Source: Candidatus Woesearchaeota archaeon
Lineage (GTDB): Archaea > Nanobdellota > Nanobdellia > Woesearchaeales > GW2011-AR9
Direction of reading: 5' to 3'
Length of the DNA stretch: 54,219 nt
NCBI GenBank assembly: GCA_016185625.1
Contig: JACPND010000020.1
Coordinates: 1-54,219 of the forward strand
The position numbers and the translations under genes are program-made. The notes below the pieces were generated by a model. That model was not told the origin of the DNA, ran no database searches, and worked only from the letters and a program-made list of their open reading frames with translations. Shown here one piece after another: positions 645 to 30,031 of the stretch. Each line of letters starts with the position of its first letter. The stretch's first letter is position 1.

Positions 645-1337
645 TTAAAGCGCCTTCACTCTTCCCGGCAGGTTCTGGAAGACTTCTCCCTGCGCAATCA
701 TCTGCTCCAGAATCTTCTCCGTATCAACGATCGAGGATCTTTCAATCAAGGTTTCGATGGGCACGCCCTGTCCCTCATCCAGCTCGCGGATTAATCTTGC
801 CAATTTCTGCAGAGGAACAAGAAGGACATTGTCCTTCTGTTCAGAAGGGAAAACTATCCCTCCTTGAACAAGAGGCTCTTCAACGACACTCTCCACCGCA
901 ACAACTTCTTCTACAATGGCTTGCGGCGCCGTTACGGCTCTCAGTTTACGATGATGGAGCTCCAACGCCCGCACCTTTAACCACAACAGATTGATTTTCC
1001 GGATAATTTCTATCGCCAGGTATTTCTCCTGATCATACATCCGCACCCGGCCGATGACCATGACGGCATCGCTGATCATCACCCGAGAAACCGCTGCGTT
1101 TTCTTCAAACGACCGGGCGATGATTTTGCCGGTGCCATCATCAATCCATAAGTTAGTGATATTGCCCAGTTCTTCTTTATTGACGACAATGGCGCCTATA
1201 TTCAGGCGATATATTTTTTCCTCTCCACACAAAAGATAATTCGGCGACTGTTCCTGCTCCTGCACATAGGTTCCGTCCAGAATCTGCCGGATAGTCAATT
1301 TAATTGCCGGAAAGCGCGTAAAAGTTTCCATGGTCAT
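645..1337 (-). CDS. RPA32-like OB-fold single-strand DNA-binding protein with C-terminal winged-helix-like region
   Basis: OB-fold pattern IGAIVVNKEE...LWIDDGTGKIIARSF; start overlaps the end of the MCM gene. Confidence 0.7.
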   Translation of the reverse strand: MTMETFTRFPAIKLTIRQILDGTYVQEQEQSPNYLLCGEEKIYRLNIGAIVVNKEELGNITNLWIDDGTGKIIARSFEENAAVSRVMISDAVMVIGRVRMYDQEKYLAIEIIRKINLLWLKVRALELHHRKLRAVTAPQAIVEEVVAVESVVEEPLVQGGIVFPSEQKDNVLLVPLQKLARLIRELDEGQGVPIETLIERSSIVDTEKILEQMIAQGEVFQNLPGRVKAL

Positions 1338-3352
1338 AATCGCTGGACGAAGTTCCGCTTGGGTTCAAAGACATCGCCGGAACGGCGCAATTTCTCCAAC
1401 ACCTCTTCAACTTGGCCGACAGTCATGTTTTTCTCCTTGGCTGCTTCCACAATCGCTTCCAGCGGAATCAGTTTTGAGTTCAGCTGCTTCTCTAAGGCAT
1501 CAATAATCTCTTTAAGGACGCCAATATTACTGCGCTGCGTGGCGGTGATCCTGCTGCTCAGGCGGTCAATGTCAATTTTACCTGTCTCGTTGTCTTTGGC
1601 AATCTGACTCAGGCAATAATTGATGAGTTCGATGGCTTTCTGGGCATCTTTTTTCGTGACGGTCTTGGACAATCGTATTTTTGCTGAGGCTTCCGAAAGC
1701 CTGATTAACGCTTCCAGTTGCCTGGCCGTGATAGGGACGGGAGCACGCTTACCTTCGGTTGCGGTATCACTATTACGCATCGTGATATAATATTCTTTGA
1801 TTTCTTCAATTGCCGCATCGGTCATTTTTGGATTGCCCGTCTGGCGGATATACGAGAAATATTTTGTCAGCAGATTGGTGCTTATTTCCGCTTTGGCTTT
1901 TTCCGGGTTCTTGTGCAGGGCCAGGATAAACGTAGCGGTCTGCTCATCTTTTTCCCGCTGAGGATTATCTTGCACCGGAAAAATAAGGTCGAAACGATTG
2001 ATTAATGTGGGCGGCAGATCAATCTGCTCGGCGAGGAGCCCATAAGGATCGAACCGCCCGTGTTTCGGGTTAGCCGCCGCCAAGACGGTCGTTTCACAGC
2101 GCAACGTCGCCTGAATATTTGCTTTGCTGATACTTACTTGCTGCTGTTCCAGGCCTTCGTGGAGTGCAGCACGATCTTCTTTTGTCATCTTATCTAACTC
2201 GTCGATAATCGCAAATCCGTGATTGGCTAATACCAGTGTTCCTGCTTCCAGGCTCCAGCCGCCGAGAAATTCATCTCGTACGACAGATGCGGTGAGGCCG
2301 GCACCACTCGCCCCTTTTCCTGATGTAAAACGCGCTTTTGGGGCGACCTTGGAGATTCTCTTCAGCATCTGACTTTTTCCCGCTCCTGGATCACCAATAA
2401 GGAGCACATGCATGTCTCCTCTGGTCACCACGCCGTCCGGCCGCTCCTTCTTGCACCCTCCGGCCAACTGCAGTACCAGGGCTTCTTTGATCTTGTCATG
2501 GCCAAAAATAGACGGAACGATGCTGTTGGAAAGCACTGCCAGGACGTCCGGGCTTTTGGCAATTTTCCTGATTTCCTCCATTTCCTTTTCATTAATTTTC
2601 AGGTTAAAGAAATCCTCCTGCATCGGCTCTAGGTTATTGGCTTCGATGATCAGGTCGTATTTCACTGATTGTCCTCCAGTCTTGAGGATAATGGGCACTT
2701 CCGTCACCCAGCCATATAAGCGTACTTTTGAACCGGGAGCGGTACGGCGGTCAGAAATAGGTGAAACCAAATCATCTTTCAGAAATACGTTAATGCGCTT
2801 AGGCTGTCCCGCCCCTTCCAACTCATCGGGTGATTCTTCCAGCACGATGCCCTGGCCATCAAGCAGTTCTTTTGAAATTTCTTTAAATTTTCCCTTGCGC
2901 CCGCAGCTGCAGCGGCTGGGCTCGTGATATTTTTGGTCAGTTTGGAACAGAGTAATCATGGTTCCGCAGGAAGGGCATTCGAATTTAACCGTCGTGACGT
3001 GAGGGCGGACATCCGACTTTTTTCTGACGACGCCTTCCGTCCAGAGAAACTTGTTCAGATGCTTGCTCCTTATTTCTGATACCGCTACTTTCTGCGAGTC
3101 AGGAAGATTGGTCAGGCGGACATTGAACTTGGTGATTTTTTGGTCAAAGTCTTTGATGGTCAATTCCGCAGCTTTGAGCACTTCTTCCGGCGCTTCTAGC
3201 AGTTCTTCGCTCAATTCAGTGTTAAATTTTATCAGCTGGGTGAAATCTATGACCAGAAAACTCTGCCCTTTCCGGACGGCTTCTAGGAGTTGGGGGTAAT
3301 AGTTCTGTTCAATAAAGTCCCGAAAAATCTTTTTCTGTTCGTCTACTTCCAT
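1334..3352 (-). CDS. mcm: Replicative DNA helicase MCM
   Basis: Walker A GDPGAGKSQMLK, Walker B FAIIDELDKM, arginine finger region LINRFDLIF, N-terminal Zn motif CPSC...CSC. Confidence 0.97.
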   Translation of the reverse strand: MEVDEQKKIFRDFIEQNYYPQLLEAVRKGQSFLVIDFTQLIKFNTELSEELLEAPEEVLKAAELTIKDFDQKITKFNVRLTNLPDSQKVAVSEIRSKHLNKFLWTEGVVRKKSDVRPHVTTVKFECPSCGTMITLFQTDQKYHEPSRCSCGRKGKFKEISKELLDGQGIVLEESPDELEGAGQPKRINVFLKDDLVSPISDRRTAPGSKVRLYGWVTEVPIILKTGGQSVKYDLIIEANNLEPMQEDFFNLKINEKEMEEIRKIAKSPDVLAVLSNSIVPSIFGHDKIKEALVLQLAGGCKKERPDGVVTRGDMHVLLIGDPGAGKSQMLKRISKVAPKARFTSGKGASGAGLTASVVRDEFLGGWSLEAGTLVLANHGFAIIDELDKMTKEDRAALHEGLEQQQVSISKANIQATLRCETTVLAAANPKHGRFDPYGLLAEQIDLPPTLINRFDLIFPVQDNPQREKDEQTATFILALHKNPEKAKAEISTNLLTKYFSYIRQTGNPKMTDAAIEEIKEYYITMRNSDTATEGKRAPVPITARQLEALIRLSEASAKIRLSKTVTKKDAQKAIELINYCLSQIAKDNETGKIDIDRLSSRITATQRSNIGVLKEIIDALEKQLNSKLIPLEAIVEAAKEKNMTVGQVEEVLEKLRRSGDVFEPKRNFVQRL

Positions 3353-3397: not shown

Positions 3398-3943
3398 TTA
3401 CTTCCCTAGCACTTTCTTGAGGTTCTCGATGAGCTTATCCACCGCATCGTTCACTTCTTTCTCAGTCTTCGTTCCGGTACAGACAATCTTACCATTGCTG
3501 AAGAGCAGGAAGGTTGCATTAGTTCCTTTCAGCTTATGCACCAAACCCGGGAACTGCTCCGGCTCGTATTCAGTATTCGGCAGCTTGACACCTAAGATAT
3601 TTAAGTTCAGATCCATGCCGATATGGCCGGAAGCGACGATATTCTGAACGGTAATCTGGGGCTTAATCGTAACATGAATGTCCAGCTTTTTAAGCGCTTT
3701 GATGATCTGTTGGATGGCCAATTCTACATCTCCCATGGTCCTAGCGCCCGTACAGACAATCTTCCCGCTGGAGAACACTAAAGCAGATGTTTTGGGCTCT
3801 TTGATCCTGAGAACAAGACCGGGAAATTGCTCGGGATTGTATTCAGTATTCGGCAAAGTTGCCGCCATCTTCTCTAAAGGGATATCTTTCTCTAACGACG
3901 ACGAAACCACAATATTAACAATTTTAATTTCTTTTTTTGCCAT
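3398..3943 (-). CDS. tbp: TATA-box-binding protein
   Basis: Two direct repeats with NTEYNPEQFPGLV / NTEYEPEQFPGLV and SSGKIVCTGAR / SNGKIVCTGTK. Confidence 0.97.
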   Translation of the reverse strand: MAKKEIKIVNIVVSSSLEKDIPLEKMAATLPNTEYNPEQFPGLVLRIKEPKTSALVFSSGKIVCTGARTMGDVELAIQQIIKALKKLDIHVTIKPQITVQNIVASGHIGMDLNLNILGVKLPNTEYEPEQFPGLVHKLKGTNATFLLFSNGKIVCTGTKTEKEVNDAVDKLIENLKKVLGK

Positions 3944-4176
3944 AACGATTGCCCCCGCTTATTTAAAAACAGTTTGATTTGTTTATAAATCACAAGAGAG
4001 TATTTAAACGTTTCCTTTATAAATGATAGTTTCTAAAAAAAGTATATACTCTACATAGTTGCTCGGCAGGGGAACACCCCCTTGGTTTCCGGTGGATTTC
4101 TCGACGAGAAAAGAAGACAAATTAAGCGCAAAAGAAAGAGAGGAATGTTTTTAAATAGGCAGCTGGTCGAGAGCGT

Positions 4177-21366: not shown

Positions 21367-24300
21367 TCATTTCACAAACGCTCCCAATCCCGCCTGCTTC
21401 TCCTTCTCCCGCCCAAAGACATGATCCACGTCGGTCTTCAAAATATGGATCACCTGTTTTAAGTACGGTGAAAAATCGTATTTTTCTACTAACGCCAGCG
21501 AAGGGCCTAAATACTTTACCACTGAGCCTTCCGAGATGGTGAAGATTAATTTGCCGTCACAGGCGGTGCATTTAGATGATAACGGCGGACGGCGATATTT
21601 GGCATTGCACTTTACGCAGCGGAACTGCTGCATGGAGAATTTCTTGAGGTTTCCCCGGATATCTTTCAGGAAGTGTTTTTGAATTACTAATTTGGCCACG
21701 TCGTCCATATCAACAGCCCGTACTTTCTTGGCGATTTCCATCTGGCCGAACAATTTCTCTTCCATCGAGGGCAGGATCTTGTAGGCGGAGCATTGTACGC
21801 CTTGGTTGAAATTGCTGACCGGATGAGTGAAACCAAACTGCTCGTATTGCAATGGCGTGCGCAGGCGACCGCCCAACTGAGCAACCTTTTTCTTTTCGGG
21901 GCCAGATTTCACCTCCCAGGGATTTTTCATGTCTAAGGCGGCTTCATAAAATTCTAATGGATATTTCCACACGACATCCATTCCGTGCACCTGGTCATCG
22001 ACTTCGGAAGGATTGAGATTAGAAGTAAGAACTAATGGAGAATCCATCGTGGCAGCGCCACGGGTGTTGGGCAAATACTGCCGGGAGAAATTTAATAAAG
22101 CGTCCATCAAGAGCATGACGCAAGCTTCATCACCGTCGCATTGTTTGGCAAGGATTCCGTTGGCAAGAACCACATGGTTTTCCACATTTAAACAGTAGGT
22201 GGTTTGTTCTTTTTCTTCTATGGTGATGTTGGTAATAGGATCGTAAATAAACAATTTGTCTTTTTTTATTCGCATCCCCTGTACTTTTTTCTGTGAGAAA
22301 GTGGATAATATCTTTCTCTTTCGTTGAGATATGAACCCGGCGTAGTACTCAAATAAATGAGTATAATCAGAAGGAACAGTTAATTTAGTACAGGTAAAGA
22401 ATGGGATCTCCTTTTTTTTTCGGATGTAAAATTCTCTTACTCGAGGCCCTGGTTGTTTTGTATATTCGTAAAACCGGGAGAAAATCCCTAACTTTAAGAG
22501 TAATAGATGGATGTCGTTGAGGAGCTGGTTATTTGCAGAGTCGCAGCACACCCGATTATCTTTTCTACTGACTGACCCGTCTCCTTCAAAATAACCACGT
22601 AAAAATGCGCCCACAGCATCTTTTTCAGCGCTAAAGAACATCCCGGGAACTCGTTTGCTGTATGCATCAGTACCGCAATTAAAGTAATGGACAATTAACT
22701 CGTACCACAACCTACTGGAAAAAGTGATCCTATCTGCTTTGTTCTCTGTTTGCTTTAATCCCACTTTCTTCCCAAAATGAGTAAGAAAATTTCGGATTTC
22801 CGGATCAAATCCAGCGACATATACCTGAGCAAAGCCCTTTTCAGACTGGTTTATTCTCGCATACCCTTCTGCCACATAGAGGCCCAAGTATTGATAAAAA
22901 TCTTGATCTAAATCTATAAGAAGGGGAAGCTCGACAGTGTCACGTTTGGCGGCTAGGGTAGCCCTGCCCATCCATTCTTTCGGATCGAGAGAGAAAGCTC
23001 TCACTATTTTTTCAAATACAGAAAGGGGAAAACTGTTCCGGAAATAATAATTTCTGATATCGTGGTAATTTATATTTAGTTTTCTGCTAATTTCAAGGAG
23101 TGGAATCTTTAGTGCTTGTTTGACATTTCTGATGACAATATCATCTCTTCCGGAAAACACCTTGGACAGATTGAGATTTCTCTTTGGATTTTCCGGAAAG
23201 GCGGCATTTTTCGGAAGAAGGAGAAGATCGCCCACGGTCAATTTGTCCGCAGCAATGGTCTTGATGGATTCATTTTTTTTTGTGATAAATTTATGAGTGA
23301 GAGTGACGGATATTCTCCTGCCCGTGGCAGTTTTTAGGGTGATAATCTTACGGGGGGCATGTTTCGTAAAATTATTGATTTTAACAACACTTAATTTTTT
23401 TTCAGTATTTAATCCAAAAGTGTAATATTCAGATGCGTTAACCTCTGTCGTTCCAAAGGCATCAACTACTTTTTGTGGATTTAATCGTTCTACAAGTTCA
23501 CCGAGAGCTTCGTTCCGCCATTCTTTCCCATCATATATTGGCAGCAATGTATCACGTGTAAAGCAATCCCTGCGCAATCCAGCATGATACATCGGATGCG
23601 CCAGCAACCCTTGTGTTTCCGAAAAACCGATGATCCGCCCGATCAGCCCGGCAGAAATGTGCGGCGCCAGGCCAATAACTAGATGGCCGATTAAATCTTC
23701 TTCATTCTTGCAGCCATAAAATGACCCTAACCCATAGAACTTTACCAATAAGTCATCGACAAATTGAGTCACTCTTCTCAGCACTTTGGGGGCGCTTTCA
23801 TCCAGCGAATCAAAGCCGGGAAGAATCAAGTCCTGCGGCTTTAGCTCGAGGATCTGATCCTCGTCCGCCAGTTCTGTTCCCTGAATGTCATAGAGATAAC
23901 CCAGCTCTTTTAATTTTGCGACCGAGGTCTTGATTTCCTTGGGCTTGAAATGGGTTATAGGCAGCTCGGTGCAGTCATAACGGGTGGTGCCGTCTTTATT
24001 GACATAAATCAGATGCTTCGCCCGCAGGATGCCTTTAGCTAAATGCTCTACGATGTGATATTTGTTAGAGGTTCCGCGGATGCCTTTAATCAAATCAGGA
24101 TAAATGTTTTCTCCCAATCGGCTGAGTGCAGATGAGAAATAATATTTGATGTCTAATGCCTGTTCTTTATACGGGCGGGCAGGGCCATGCCGACACTGCT
24201 CGGCATCTACATCCCCGCAGCTGCGGCAATGGTGACGCTGGATAGTCTTTTCTCCGCATTGTTCACAGCGAGGATAAATCATCTCTTTCTGGCAGGGCAC

Positions 24301-26331
24301 GCAGTAACGGCAGGGGAAGGAGCTCAGAACTTTTCCTGCATCCATCGCCGACTGGAAACTGCGTAAGCGATCGCCTTCTTCCCCTACGGGGAACATCACT
24401 TGGGGGCTTCCTGTGAGCTGGCGCATCTTGGCCTTTTCAGGACGGCCCATCCTTGCTCCGATAAATGTGCCGGCTTTATCTCTGATCGTGACCGGCGAAA
24501 TTTGATTGATGATGTCGAGAGCAGTCTTGGATTTATCAGCAGGAATGGTCAGCTGCTCCAGGTCTTTTTGGCTCTGGAGATTGAAAACCAGGCACAATGC
24601 CGTCGCTTCTGTCTTTTCAATGACTATGTTTTCTTTGTTGACGACCTGATGCGGCAGGCCAGCGGATTCCAGCACCTGCTTGCCAGACACATGGATAGGA
24701 TTAGAGAAGTAGTAGGGTAAAATTATCTTTTTGATCCCCTGCTCATCAATCTTCAATTTTCCTTCACGCAGCCACTCAGCCAGCGCTATCAAATCAGCAG
24801 AAGGAATAAGCTTCCAATAATAAGTATAGTCGGGGTGTAATGGAATGCCGAGTTCATGGCTTAACATTCGGGCTTCGTCAAATGAGGGATATTCCAGAAG
24901 TGGATTTGACAGTAATTCATCAACGCGCTGCAAACTTGCTTTTTTATGCTCCAACGCCTCTTTCACATCCAGCGCCCACCACTCCGGGCAATAGCCGGCA
25001 GGGACCAAGAGCTGGCCATTTTCAGAAAAATCGCCGTAATTAAAGAGAATATCTCCGAGAAAGATAATTTCTTCGACATCACTGTTGACTTTTTTCGCTT
25101 CTTCTTCTGTTTTCAATCGCAGCACTGAACCGTCCCGTAGTTTCACCGTCGGCCCTTCTATTGTGTCACAGACCGTGACGGAAGCGGCTTTTCCGGGACG
25201 CTCCACTTTCAATTGTGTGCCTATCGCAATATATTTGTCTAGCACAATCAGGGTTGCGGGATGCAAGGCACAGGCAGAAAATCCGGTGGCTCTGGTGCGG
25301 CCATAGCGCAGGCGGAAGCCTCCGGGTGCAAGAGGATAGGTGAGAATCGGCCGGCCAGCGACTAAGTCCATGATGAAAGTGTTATTGGCTTTTACTTTCT
25401 TCTGGGTAACTTCGGTTTTGGGCGAATGCGAGGCATGGATCTGCTCCTTGACTTTCAGGAAATCAGCCAGCCATTCCCACTGCAAGCCAAAATCCTTTCC
25501 CCATTTGGATAGGCGTTTCCAGAGCTTGGGCGCTTTTTGTGAGAGTCCTTCGGCTAACACCAGTGCCATGCCGCCGCGGATGCAATTGGTTTCTATTCTC
25601 GGAAGGTCTTTGTAATTTGATACTTCAATTTTTTCTGTGGGATCGCCGTCAACCTCCACCGGCAGATGGGAAACAAGGAAACGAATCTCTTCGTCAGAAG
25701 GATGATATTGTAAATTGGTCACCCGCTCATGATAATCGTGGATTTCCATCGTGTAGCGATTGATTTCCTTTTCATCAGGATCGTACGCGGCATAGCCCAT
25801 CACGACCCGCACATAGTCTCCCAAAATCACCGATGTGGAAGCCGCTGTTCCGCCTGCTCCTCTGATGGGGCCGGCATATTGGAGCGCAAAGTATTCTTTT
25901 CCATCCTGCCGCTGCTTGATTTTCAAACCGATAAACCCTTCTAATGGAGCAGAGACAATACCTAAAGTTAAATAGGCAAAGCCGACACGGATGCCGACTT
26001 CCATCGCCTCGTGCTTAGACTTGAACGGGGAAAATTTTTCTTTGGCAACTTCCTCGGCAATTTTAAATCCCACCCGCCAGTCCAGCAATCCATATTCTTT
26101 TTCTAGTTCCAGGATACGCTGGATGATCGCCGGATCATTGATCTGTGGAGAAACGACGGAAACCAATCCCACGACACGCTCAGCCATATTGTTGGCTAAA
26201 GGAATGTTCACTTCTTCTTCCGGATCAAGCCCCTTGGCGCGCGCCTGCTGGGCGACGTCATAACAATGCTTTACTTCGGCATTGATGGTCTGGAAGTACT
26301 GCTTGATTTCAGGAGAGCTGGCGATGTCCAT
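21367..26331 (-). CDS. polC: DNA polymerase D large subunit DP2, intein-containing precursor
   Basis: GPIRGAGGTAAS, GGFRLRYGR, CDGDEACVMLLMDALLNFSR...GAAMDSPLVL-type DP2 motifs; C-terminal CxxC zinc motifs. Confidence 0.97.
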   Translation of the reverse strand: MDIASSPEIKQYFQTINAEVKHCYDVAQQARAKGLDPEEEVNIPLANNMAERVVGLVSVVSPQINDPAIIQRILELEKEYGLLDWRVGFKIAEEVAKEKFSPFKSKHEAMEVGIRVGFAYLTLGIVSAPLEGFIGLKIKQRQDGKEYFALQYAGPIRGAGGTAASTSVILGDYVRVVMGYAAYDPDEKEINRYTMEIHDYHERVTNLQYHPSDEEIRFLVSHLPVEVDGDPTEKIEVSNYKDLPRIETNCIRGGMALVLAEGLSQKAPKLWKRLSKWGKDFGLQWEWLADFLKVKEQIHASHSPKTEVTQKKVKANNTFIMDLVAGRPILTYPLAPGGFRLRYGRTRATGFSACALHPATLIVLDKYIAIGTQLKVERPGKAASVTVCDTIEGPTVKLRDGSVLRLKTEEEAKKVNSDVEEIIFLGDILFNYGDFSENGQLLVPAGYCPEWWALDVKEALEHKKASLQRVDELLSNPLLEYPSFDEARMLSHELGIPLHPDYTYYWKLIPSADLIALAEWLREGKLKIDEQGIKKIILPYYFSNPIHVSGKQVLESAGLPHQVVNKENIVIEKTEATALCLVFNLQSQKDLEQLTIPADKSKTALDIINQISPVTIRDKAGTFIGARMGRPEKAKMRQLTGSPQVMFPVGEEGDRLRSFQSAMDAGKVLSSFPCRYCVPCQKEMIYPRCEQCGEKTIQRHHCRSCGDVDAEQCRHGPARPYKEQALDIKYYFSSALSRLGENIYPDLIKGIRGTSNKYHIVEHLAKGILRAKHLIYVNKDGTTRYDCTELPITHFKPKEIKTSVAKLKELGYLYDIQGTELADEDQILELKPQDLILPGFDSLDESAPKVLRRVTQFVDDLLVKFYGLGSFYGCKNEEDLIGHLVIGLAPHISAGLIGRIIGFSETQGLLAHPMYHAGLRRDCFTRDTLLPIYDGKEWRNEALGELVERLNPQKVVDAFGTTEVNASEYYTFGLNTEKKLSVVKINNFTKHAPRKIITLKTATGRRISVTLTHKFITKKNESIKTIAADKLTVGDLLLLPKNAAFPENPKRNLNLSKVFSGRDDIVIRNVKQALKIPLLEISRKLNINYHDIRNYYFRNSFPLSVFEKIVRAFSLDPKEWMGRATLAAKRDTVELPLLIDLDQDFYQYLGLYVAEGYARINQSEKGFAQVYVAGFDPEIRNFLTHFGKKVGLKQTENKADRITFSSRLWYELIVHYFNCGTDAYSKRVPGMFFSAEKDAVGAFLRGYFEGDGSVSRKDNRVCCDSANNQLLNDIHLLLLKLGIFSRFYEYTKQPGPRVREFYIRKKKEIPFFTCTKLTVPSDYTHLFEYYAGFISQRKRKILSTFSQKKVQGMRIKKDKLFIYDPITNITIEEKEQTTYCLNVENHVVLANGILAKQCDGDEACVMLLMDALLNFSRQYLPNTRGAATMDSPLVLTSNLNPSEVDDQVHGMDVVWKYPLEFYEAALDMKNPWEVKSGPEKKKVAQLGGRLRTPLQYEQFGFTHPVSNFNQGVQCSAYKILPSMEEKLFGQMEIAKKVRAVDMDDVAKLVIQKHFLKDIRGNLKKFSMQQFRCVKCNAKYRRPPLSSKCTACDGKLIFTISEGSVVKYLGPSLALVEKYDFSPYLKQVIHILKTDVDHVFGREKEKQAGLGAFVK
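22141..23565 (-). mobile_element. Intein (475 aa) with DOD homing endonuclease in DP2
   Basis: Interrupts RRD|CDGDE; begins CFTRDTLLPIYDG, LAGLIDADG-like YLGLYVAEGYA and FLRGYFEGDGSV, ends NHVVLANGILAKQ before Cys+1. Confidence 0.95.
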
Positions 26332-26379: not shown

Positions 26380-28065
26380 CTAGAGGAATTTGAGCACTTT
26401 TATTTCTCGTGTTTTGAGATTGATCAAAGGGACGCGCGCCGGTTCAGGGTCGTGGCCGAGCTTTTCCTGAAAGGCAGTCTTAGCCTGCCAGCAGCTGCCG
26501 CTCATCATGGTTACGCCGCGATAATTGGCCACGGTACAATAATGGATATGGCCGGTAATGAGAATATCGGGAACTTTGCGGATGACTAAAGGATCTTCAG
26601 CATGTGCCGGAAAATACGGCGTGGAACGAAAAGTCGGCGCCAGATGGCGGCGCTTGAGCAGGAATTTCATGATTAAATCAGAGCGGTGATAGCCACCACC
26701 ATTGCGGATGGATTCCACGTTGGCAACAAAATAATCAAAACTATAGCCATGATACATCAGCACGTCCAGGCCGGGAGAGGCCGGTGTTTTGGCGATGTTG
26801 ACCAGTGCAGGATTGGTGACCAAAGTCACGTTGGGAAGCTCAAAGAGCAGGGGTGTGTATTCTTTGTAAAACACGGGCTGCGGCTCCGCCAGATGCACCA
26901 CATCGTGATTGCCGGGACAGATGATGATCTGCTTGTCAACAGGTATTTGCTTGATAAGGCGGCAGAATTCATTATATTGGCCGGTAATGTCTTTGATCTC
27001 CAGCTCTTCATCTTGTGATGGATAAATGCCCACGCCATCAACTAAATCACCAGCAATAAAAATGTAGCGTACTTTCTGCGCCATCTCGCGTTGAGCATCA
27101 TTTCCCGCCTGCCCGTTAATCCAGTGCAGGAAACGATTGAATTCTTCTTTGAGGAACAACAGGGAGCCGACGTGCAGATCGGAAAGAAAAATGGCATATT
27201 CCTCTTTTTCGGCAGTCCTTGGTTCGGCTTGCGGGATGTCGGGCCAGACAATGGAGTTGGCAAAAATAGCTTTATCCGCAGATTGACCGGTAATGCCGAT
27301 CACTTCGTCAGGAACGAGATCTTTCGCCTGCCGGAACAGCTCGGTGTTGTTCTTGGAAAAGATGATTTTTATCTGGCCGGTTAAATCTTCTATCGTGACT
27401 ATCAGGTTTCCGGATTTAGTTTCTCTGATGTCTGAAATGATGCCGATAATGCTGACCGGTTCGGCTTCTTTTTTCTGCAAGATCCGGTTGATGGCAGTGA
27501 GATTCTGTAATTCCTGGCGATAGCGCAGCAGGCTTTCCAGAAAGCGGTAGCGCGAAACGAAGTAGTTAGAGAAATCTTTGACTTCGTATTTATGGGGAAC
27601 ATTGACATAAGAGACCAGTACTTGGAGCGGCGCTAATTCCAGTAAGGCGGTTTGCAGCAGTGCGGACGACAGTAGTGCTGGTTGCGGCTGGATTTGTGCT
27701 TCCGTAGAAAAGCTGGCACTCTGAGTTGCCGCTTCTAACTGCGTTTCCAGGCTGTGTACATCCTGTGGCTGCGTGCTGGGCTGCACGAACAGCTGGGAAT
27801 GCTGCAGCTTCTGCAGATGGCGCTGATATAAATCATCATTGCGGTCACGCTCCGCATCCACCCGATACTTGTCAATTTCGTACCAATCGACGATATGACC
27901 CTGCTGGGCAATGATGGGGGTATAATCTGGTGTCAGCACGAGCAGATCGCCTTCGGCTTCAATTTTGGCTTTGAGAGTGTCTTCAACACCCTGGTCTACC
28001 ATCTCCTTGCTGAGGAGCACGCCCCGTCCGAACATATCCCCGATGATTTTTTCCGGTTCCATCAA
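26380..28065 (-). CDS. polB: DNA polymerase D small subunit DP1
   Basis: OB region plus calcineurin-like LSDLHVGS, GDLVDG, CPGNHD, GHIHY motifs. Confidence 0.95.
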   Translation of the reverse strand: MMEPEKIIGDMFGRGVLLSKEMVDQGVEDTLKAKIEAEGDLLVLTPDYTPIIAQQGHIVDWYEIDKYRVDAERDRNDDLYQRHLQKLQHSQLFVQPSTQPQDVHSLETQLEAATQSASFSTEAQIQPQPALLSSALLQTALLELAPLQVLVSYVNVPHKYEVKDFSNYFVSRYRFLESLLRYRQELQNLTAINRILQKKEAEPVSIIGIISDIRETKSGNLIVTIEDLTGQIKIIFSKNNTELFRQAKDLVPDEVIGITGQSADKAIFANSIVWPDIPQAEPRTAEKEEYAIFLSDLHVGSLLFLKEEFNRFLHWINGQAGNDAQREMAQKVRYIFIAGDLVDGVGIYPSQDEELEIKDITGQYNEFCRLIKQIPVDKQIIICPGNHDVVHLAEPQPVFYKEYTPLLFELPNVTLVTNPALVNIAKTPASPGLDVLMYHGYSFDYFVANVESIRNGGGYHRSDLIMKFLLKRRHLAPTFRSTPYFPAHAEDPLVIRKVPDILITGHIHYCTVANYRGVTMMSGSCWQAKTAFQEKLGHDPEPARVPLINLKTREIKVLKFL

Positions 28066-29258
28066 AAGCTCAGTGATTTTTCCAGGAGTTCTTTCAATTT
28101 GGCCAGCAGGACTTCATCTAAAGAGAGAGAGATTTCCCGCGTTCTTCCATAACGCCCTTTAGAGATAATCTTAGCATTGATGACGCCTAACATGTCAAAT
28201 TCGGCTAGGATGTCTGAAATCCGCCGCTGGGTGAGCACATTCCACTTTACTTTTTTGCAGAGGTTCTGGTACAATTCGTAGATTTCTCCGGTAAAGAATT
28301 GTTTTTTTTGTGGTGAGATGAGGATGATTGCATATAACACTAATTGGAATTGTTTCGGCTGGGCGGCGATAGAGTTCAGGATCTTGTCGCTTTCTACTTT
28401 TTTCTCAGCGTCATCGAGATGCTGGATAGTAATTTCAGGAGAGCCGGTCCGTTCTGCCAGTTCGCCAGCGACACGCAGCAGATCGATAGCTCTTCTCGCA
28501 TCGCCATGATCACGGGCGGCAAAGGCGGCACATTTCTCGATCACGCCAGGCTGGAGCACGCCATCACGAAACGCCTTTACCGAGCGACGGCGCAAGATGT
28601 CCTGAATCTGAGGAGCATTATAAAGAGGAAAAATGAGTTCTTCTTCAGATAAAGAACTCTGGACGCGGGGATCAAGATTTTCCGCAAAGACCAGATTATT
28701 AGAAATGCCGATAAGGCAGATTTGAGTATTGTGGAGTTCGGCATTGATGCGGGTGAGGTTATACAGCACTTCATCGCCAATTTTTTTAGTGAGCTGGTCG
28801 ATTTCATCCAACACCAGCAGAACGATGCGTTTTTCCTGATCGAGAAGCTTATAGAAGATATTATAAACTTCATCAGTAGGCAAGCCGGTGGGAGGAATCT
28901 CCTGGCCGAAGAACTTGATCAGTTGGGCAATTAAGCGGTATTCGGTGTCGGCAACACGTTTGAGCTTGCAATTGATATAGATGCATTTTAAAGGAATAGC
29001 ATTGGTACGGGCAATCTGCATCATGGACGCAAGCACATAGCGCACAGAAAGGGTCTTGCCAGTGCCGGTCTTTCCATAGATAAAGAGATTGGACGGTTTT
29101 TCGGCGCGTAAAGCGGGGGCGAGGATATTGGCTATCTCATGGACTTGCTCTTCCCGATAGACTATTTCTTCTGGAACATAGCGAGACGTAAGCACTGAGG
29201 AGTCTAGAAAGAATGATTTTTTTTTAAGATAGTTCTGAAAAAAATTGTCAATACCCAT
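28062..29258 (-). CDS. cdc6: Orc1/Cdc6 origin-binding initiator
   Basis: IYGKTGTGKTLSVRYV Walker A, VLLVLDEIDQL Walker B, C-terminal wHTH. Confidence 0.96.
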   Translation of the reverse strand: MGIDNFFQNYLKKKSFFLDSSVLTSRYVPEEIVYREEQVHEIANILAPALRAEKPSNLFIYGKTGTGKTLSVRYVLASMMQIARTNAIPLKCIYINCKLKRVADTEYRLIAQLIKFFGQEIPPTGLPTDEVYNIFYKLLDQEKRIVLLVLDEIDQLTKKIGDEVLYNLTRINAELHNTQICLIGISNNLVFAENLDPRVQSSLSEEELIFPLYNAPQIQDILRRRSVKAFRDGVLQPGVIEKCAAFAARDHGDARRAIDLLRVAGELAERTGSPEITIQHLDDAEKKVESDKILNSIAAQPKQFQLVLYAIILISPQKKQFFTGEIYELYQNLCKKVKWNVLTQRRISDILAEFDMLGVINAKIISKGRYGRTREISLSLDEVLLAKLKELLEKSLSF

Positions 29259-29284
29259 ATCCCCCTCTTATTATCTATGGAAAC
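29258..29284 (-). promoter_or_regulatory. Divergent ORB-like site at the cdc6 start
   Basis: GTTTCCATAGATAATAAGAGGGGGATA on minus strand, adjacent to the stronger site 29288-29314. Confidence 0.4.
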
Positions 29285-29287
29285 TAG

Positions 29288-29314
29288 TGCCACCCCTTGA
29301 TTTCTCATGGAAAA
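29288..29314 (-). promoter_or_regulatory. ORB-like origin recognition site
   Basis: TTTTCCATGAGAAATCAAGGGGTGGCA on minus strand; shares TTTCCA...GAAAT.AAGGGGTGG with 29837-29863. Confidence 0.65.
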
Positions 29315-29836
29315 ATAATATCTGAGTTTCTGTCGAATCGATGTGAAGTTTGGATGAGCCTGCTTTATAAAAATGTTGAAGATGAAATGTGTACATTTAT
29401 AACTAGATATTGGTATGCTTCTATTTCAAGTGGAAGTTATATAAATACTTAACCGAAGATTGAAGAGTAGTGAATTATATTTATCCAATGTTTATCTTAT
29501 CACTTATTATTTATTATATTATTATATTCATCATGTATTTATATTATATATCTTATCATTATATCATCATTATTTTTCAATATGGAAAATAAGAACAACA
29601 AATCAATAAAATGAAGCAGAAAAAAAATAAAAAAGTGCATTTAACAAAAAATATAAGATAATAGGGTATTTTTATTTTTTTTTGAATATTCCATAAACTG
29701 CAATAGAAATGGCCATTTATTTTAAATTTTGATGAAATAATATAAAAACACAAAAAACTATAATTGAATAGTTTATTCTAAAGTATTGTTAGGCTAAAGT
29801 ATTGTCCCTGAATTGCCCTTAATTTTGATGAAAGAT
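29315..29836. other. Predicted replication origin (oriC) AT-rich unwinding region
   Basis: About 520 bp, strongly AT-rich, no supportable ORF, flanked by inverted ORB-like sites and adjacent to orc1/cdc6. Confidence 0.7.
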
Positions 29837-29863
29837 ATTTCCAGATGAAATGAAGGGGTGGGA
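29837..29863 (+). promoter_or_regulatory. ORB-like origin recognition site (inverted relative to 29288-29314)
   Basis: ATTTCCAGATGAAATGAAGGGGTGGGA. Confidence 0.65.
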
Positions 29864-30031
29864 GAGGGTATGGGGATAAATATTGAATTTGATATTTATA
29901 TCTCCATTAAAAATATTTGTTAAATGCAATCTAAACTATACTTTTTACACACATACATATATAATAGCGTGTAGGTGATTGTATTCAGACATAAACTCAA
30001 ATAAAAGTTTCGTGTGACCTTGCTCACTGTA

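Follow-up and report, generated by a model that had tools for sequence, protein, structure and literature searches.

The interval 29258-29863 of the DNA analysed here (the window, a stretch of 54,219 nucleotides from a Woesearchaeota genome) is predicted to be a chromosomal replication origin of the oriC1 type, an assignment to which we give a probability of about 0.9. We arrive at it because a unique pair of inverted ORBs encloses an AT-rich interval next to orc1, because this layout is conserved and because relatives exhibit skew steps at the corresponding locus. The sites, their geometry and conservation, an origin-specific palindrome and the skew steps in relatives are read directly from the sequences. 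At first sight, the locus is an ordinary oriC1; what is new is a lineage-wide palindrome at the centre of the origin and the occurrence of ORBs at the helicase operon. A literature search revealed no paper describing a Woesearchaeota origin, with subscription papers and DoriC outside its scope and earlier in silico calls of ORB pairs therefore possible.

The ORBs of the origin and the interval between them are the following:

29260..29283, minus strand: decayed ORB TTTCCATAGATAATAAGAGGGGGA at the orc1 start codon (11.2 bits)
29290..29313, minus strand: proximal ORB TTTCCATGAGAAATCAAGGGGTGG (36.4 bits)
29314..29837: AT-rich region between the ORBs, presumed duplex-unwinding element (77.5% AT)
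29838..29861, plus strand: distal ORB TTTCCAGATGAAATGAAGGGGTGG, inverted relative to the proximal ORB (30.6 bits)

The first-pass annotation had described two ORB-like sequences in inverted orientation around some 520 bp of very AT-rich DNA, and the sites, their places and orientations as well as the composition proved correct. The ORBs of the pair face each other across 524 bp with their G-strings pointing outward, and the interval compares with a mean AT content of 56.4% for the window, of which it is the most AT-rich stretch of this length, the next best elsewhere reaching 69.5%. The shared pattern TTTCCANNNGAAATNAAGGGGTGG has two matches in the window even when three mismatches are allowed (shuffle expectation 0.01), and these are the only ones in the whole genome (1,163,668 bp in 46 contigs). 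Likewise, the genome contains just two exact matches to TCCANNNGAAAYNAAGGGGT, that is, the ORB pair. A 20-base ORB core is found twice without mismatch, again as the pair, and once with a single mismatch (4077-4096, minus strand); the remaining matches to the core occur at about the level of a reversed-pattern control. The site with one mismatch belongs to the sole other near-ORB of the genome:

4075..4098, minus strand: ORB-like site 131 bp upstream of the TBP-MCM operon (18.0 bits)

Equal frequency of ORB-like sites elsewhere in the genome had been named beforehand as a finding that refutes the proposal of an origin, and the inverted pair turned out to be unique. The window ORBs match the published common archaeal motif TCCA[CG]T[TG]GAAA[TC][GA]AAGGGGT (PMC4164010) except at variable mid positions. 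They thus combine the dyad TCCA...GAAA(T/C) with a G-string and are arranged in inverted orientation around an AT-rich region, as is characteristic of oriC1-type origins. With a decayed ORB at the start of orc1 and an intact one 31 bp upstream of this start, the locus shows local turnover. We also considered whether the G-string of the ORB could serve orc1 as a ribosome-binding site, but such sites are seen at few window genes. Many window genes have TATA-like boxes not far from the start codon, and it is simpler to assume that the proximal ORB overlaps the orc1 promoter or leader. The decayed third ORB, the ORB before TBP-MCM and the central palindrome had all been absent from the first-pass annotation.

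The window furthermore encodes the following replication and transcription proteins:

1334..3352, minus strand: MCM replicative helicase (NCBIfam NF040949 domain match, E 6e-209)
3398..3943, minus strand: TATA-box-binding protein, TBP (NCBIfam)
21367..26331, minus strand: PolD large subunit DP2 with intein (TIGR00354 above cut-off; TIGR01445 intein N-terminal region)
26380..28065, minus strand: PolD small subunit DP1 (NF003118 above cut-off)
28062..29258, minus strand: orc1/cdc6, 398 aa, Orc1-1 type initiator (TIGR02928 above cut-off)

Comparison with PDB entries identifies the product of the gene beside the ORB pair as an initiator of the Orc1-1 type expected at an oriC1. Its best relatives are SsoOrc1-1 (2qby_A, E 6e-103) and ApeORC1 (2v1u, E 3e-97), the alignment spans AAA+ and winged-helix, and its closest relatives among named records carry the label Woesearchaeota. 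DP1 and then DP2 follow orc1, and TBP and MCM make up the left end of the window. The adjacency of the two PolD genes to orc1, claimed earlier, is borne out by the NCBIfam matches; the intein in DP2 begins near residue 923. The claim that MCM and RPA reside in the same window holds for MCM, and the open reading frame labelled RPA (645-1337) has no NCBIfam match.

Conservation of the layout was assessed with an ORB weight matrix built from the ORBs of the family, which found no site of at least 15 bits in 1.08 Mb of simulated sequence with the dinucleotide composition of the window. All 30 family orc1 loci possess a sense-strand proximal ORB at a distance of at most 141 bp from the start of orc1 homology. 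In 23 of them it precedes this start by only 1-11 nt, which is the position taken in the window by the decayed ORB. The inverted partner is present at each of the 25 family loci with enough upstream sequence. Among the remaining families of the order, inverted pairs occur at 14 of 20 loci, of which several are truncated by contig ends. The partner ORBs lie 206-1137 bp away across conserved AT-rich DNA. The same layout is also seen at many loci of other orders. Between genera, the ORBs and the palindrome are kept within an intergenic region that has otherwise strongly diverged. The earlier proposal of an archaeal oriC layout beside orc1/cdc6 is therefore supported by conservation in family and order, by the published ORB motif and by the type of the initiator. 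Three family origins (L035, L042, L058) contain second, weaker same-strand ORBs about 111 bp from the main ORB.

Across the order, a single AT-rich palindrome of about 24 bp, ATTATTTWCWATATWGWAAATAAT, is located near the midpoint between the inverted ORBs. It emerged when the k-mers of 39 ORB-ORB regions were compared with those of shuffled sequences: CTATATTGAA was present in 18 regions (0.3 expected) and related words were also enriched; the enriched words join into this one palindrome, which usually has one copy per origin. A second word, GTTAAATGCA, has 1-3 copies in each ORB-ORB region that contains it, and the window origin has two:

29574..29589, no strand: central palindrome, own copy TTTTCAATATGGAAAA of the consensus TTTWCWATATWGWAAA, 6 bp from the ORB-ORB midpoint
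29636..29645, minus strand: GTTAAATGCA element, copy 1 (10-mer in 11 of 39 ORB-ORB regions, shuffle mean 0.0)
29919..29928, plus strand: GTTAAATGCA element, copy 2, inverted and outside the ORB pair

The window's own palindrome is diverged with two mismatches in the 18-mer core; a family-trained model from which it had been held out nevertheless assigns it a score of 14.6, compared with a maximum of 11.4 in 200 shuffles. With at most one mismatch, the 18-base core is found at 17 of 27 family loci (null 0.1), at 13 of 17 loci of other families (null 0.0) and at 7 of 22 loci of other orders (null 0.1). When the model is trained on the family alone, the palindrome is significant at 16 of 17 order loci from hold-out families, where the best match lies inside the ORB pair in 14/14 cases; in other orders, about half of the loci are significant and in about half the palindrome is undetectable. 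Four more origins (G202, G243, G181, G222), chosen because a pattern search listed ORBs and palindrome together, have it close to the midpoint of ORBs that are about 60 to 305 bp apart. The ORB pairs of six unseen genomes of the order (G212, G248, G217, G252, G244, G156) contain no palindrome at up to one mismatch. The 49 family genomes (about 53 Mb) contain 14 exact matches, every one of them between or beside ORBs at orc1. Allowing one mismatch yields 0-3 sites per family genome, and the reversed-pattern control gives 5 per strand for the 49 genomes together. The other palindrome-like match in the genome studied here (C37:224) is without ORB and outside any origin context. In one genome (G009:C45:4952-4969), a palindrome copy resides about 250 bp upstream of TBP beside ORBs, and the TBP promoter resembles a small origin.

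The palindrome is probably a functional origin element. It is unlikely that it represents a promoter or operator instead, for example the TATA element of an unannotated transcript. Its AT-richness, its TATA-like core (it contains TATATA) and the many copies present in a few genomes, such as those away from the origin in G175 and G246, would agree with such a role, but the element keeps its place near the midpoint at ORB-ORB distances ranging between about 60 bp and over 1 kb. In large origins, hundreds of bp separate it from the neighbouring genes, and within the family it is specific to origins.

Further evidence is provided by strand-composition skew, which was calculated from third codon positions with correction for gene strand on sampled stretches of five relatives. 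T-A skew breakpoints coincide with or come close to orc1 in G022 (338 and 1058 kb, separated by nearly half the genome, with orc1 at 1058 kb), G005 (130 kb, orc1 at 129 kb) and G046 (466 kb, orc1 at 469 kb). Keto or G-C breakpoints in G044 (322 kb, orc1 at 354 kb) and G058 (146 and 794 kb, orc1 at 764 kb) are weak, are off orc1 by about 30 kb and are unconvincing taken alone. At orc1, each of the five relatives has a positive keto step; the fractions of positions with a larger step are 0.017, 0.134, 0.049, 0.11 and 0.091, which combine to p ~0.002 (Fisher). An inflection of skew, suggested earlier as a check, is thus seen at the homologous locus in relatives, more weakly in G044 and G058, and the window alone shows no step, its own genome consisting of 46 contigs.

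Raw GC skew is misleading in these organisms: in G022, G005 and G007 the G/C bias has one sign on either side of the origin, and a clean step becomes visible only with gene-strand-corrected third-position T-A or keto skew. The third-position G/C bias keeps its sign over very long stretches and in genes of both strands, with GC3 skews of about -0.5 in G005 (L242-L261), -0.3 in G022 (L130-L149, L182-L201) and -0.25 in G007 (L262-L277). In the Microgenomates bacterium Ch65 a C-rich strand along the whole chromosome has been read as one-directional replication (PMC7143001). We did not adopt this interpretation, as the T-A skew of both G022 and G005 steps at oriC, and that of G022 shifts a second time close to the antipode.

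The ORBs could in principle be Orc1 operators that regulate orc1 and the divergent gene, with replication beginning elsewhere. The proximal ORB indeed abuts the orc1 start in 23 of 30 family loci, and ORBs before TBP-MCM and other genes do not imply an origin at these places, but regulation would leave the inverted partner, the AT-rich DNA, the central origin-specific palindrome and the skew step at the locus unexplained, such that we regard this possibility as very improbable. Slightly more improbable still is a relic or dispensable origin in a chromosome copied mainly by recombination-dependent replication or from the origin of another Orc1 paralogue: Thermococcus kodakarensis is reported to be able to replicate without Cdc6 and origin (PMC5663688) and a second paralogue is indeed present, but ORBs and palindrome are conserved between genera despite divergent surrounding intergenic DNA, relatives show skew steps and the second paralogue has no ORBs nearby. 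This divergent Orc1/Cdc6 paralogue (L004, G000:C18:19499-20425) shares 30% identity, occurs in most relatives and lacks neighbouring ORBs in the weight-matrix scan. It is possibly a non-initiator regulator; its existence makes a further origin elsewhere conceivable.

For the oriC1-type origin, we infer protein binding, MCM loading, regulation and a palindrome-binding protein along the following lines. The Orc1 encoded next door would bind the two inverted ORBs, its winged helix contacting TTTCCA...GAAAT and the initiator-specific motif of its AAA+ part contacting the G-string. By homology to oriC1 systems, Orc1 monomers would be bound with defined polarity, and each would bring one MCM hexamer into the AT-rich region. 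The palindrome may then form the symmetry axis at which the N-terminal faces of the two hexamers meet, and a putative binder, probably a symmetric dimer, could space, align or release them before forks depart in both directions. Since the proximal ORB reaches the orc1 start and another ORB precedes TBP-MCM, Orc1 is also likely to adjust how much of itself and of the helicase is made.

PolD genes lie near the oriC of Pyrococcus as well. As in the window, this single oriC is located directly upstream of cdc6 (PMC4010727). The minimal oriC1 of Haloarcula hispanica is likewise an AT-rich sequence between inverted, G-string-ended ORBs beside cdc6, and haloarchaea have an enhancer immediately inward of the ORBs in the form of a G-rich inverted repeat (PMC3936714). 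The origins studied here have an AT-rich palindrome at the centre. The closest parallel for this palindrome is offered by oriC1 of Sulfolobus islandicus/solfataricus, in which the order is ORB3-DUE-ucm-ORB2, with Orc1-1 and UBP as the proteins involved (PMC12141716). It shares the inverted ORBs around an AT-rich DUE beside orc1-1 and the short motif midway between them. The activity of oriC1 requires the ucm, to which UBP binds; this protein contacts MCM and has been proposed to act on the spacing, alignment or release of hexamers (PMC12141716). In contrast to the Woesearchaeota element, a palindrome of about 24 bp that is origin-specific in the family, the ucm is an 11-bp site for a UBP monomer, and more than 300 UBP sites exist per genome. 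Like the ucm, the palindrome is thus conserved and sits in the middle of a DUE bounded by inverted ORBs; hundreds of sites per genome are absent in the family (0-3 at up to one mismatch). On the basis of its position and symmetry, the palindrome appears to be a good candidate for a ucm counterpart.

The central palindrome as part of a lineage-wide origin design is a previously undescribed feature. The ubp gene has been reported as confined to Desulfurococcales and Sulfolobales, and the question of analogous origin factors in divergent archaea was left open in the 2025 UBP paper (PMC12141716); a conserved central element between ORBs addresses just this question. Its consensus ATTATTTTCTATATAGAAAATAAT provides a 24-bp bait for the binding protein, and its symmetric position bears on the question of an opposed-hexamer assembly of archaeal MCM. 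In addition, the ORB/orc1 layout is a marker for finding the origins of uncultured DPANN archaea and hence for coverage-based estimates of growth rate.

The ORB before TBP-MCM has single or tandem counterparts in many genomes of the order. About 15 of 42 family genomes have an ORB of at least 18 bits near TBP, and 27 of the 42 have no recognisable ORB before this gene. In seven genomes of other families (L310-L315, L329), tandem ORBs 83-86 bp apart precede TBP, and MCM is situated directly downstream of TBP in six of these; at two further loci (L316, L317) a tandem pair precedes MCM without TBP in between. All nine tandem loci (L310-L317, L329) therefore precede the TBP-MCM operon or MCM, a fraction that is no estimate of frequency since the loci were chosen from a pattern list showing tandem sites. 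The distribution of ORBs over orc1, TBP-MCM and a few other genes suggests, on balance, an Orc1 regulon. An alternative natural reading of the non-origin ORBs is titration of Orc1, as proposed for haloarchaeal oriC2 (PMC3936714). ORBs at TBP-MCM suggest a coupling of initiation with helicase supply. Bacteria carry DnaA boxes in the dnaA promoter and at other genes. The bacterial system is thus similar in having initiator sites at the start of the initiator gene itself and at other genes, but boxes and initiator are unrelated, and the analogy is a functional one. Taken together, origins of the order may possess a palindromic centre as the DPANN equivalent of the ucm, at which a dedicated symmetric binder sets the MCM axis, plus a DnaA-like Orc1 regulon, a composite picture for which we see the chances as evenly balanced.

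Tandem ORBs are also present before other genes. In six genomes (L318-L323) they are spaced 24-30 bp apart, are followed by CTCA/GTCTCA words and stand in front of a small coiled-coil/HTH-like and/or DUF192-like open reading frame. In one genome (L324), a triple ORB precedes a VapBC-like pair, the labels of all these products having been assigned by eye.
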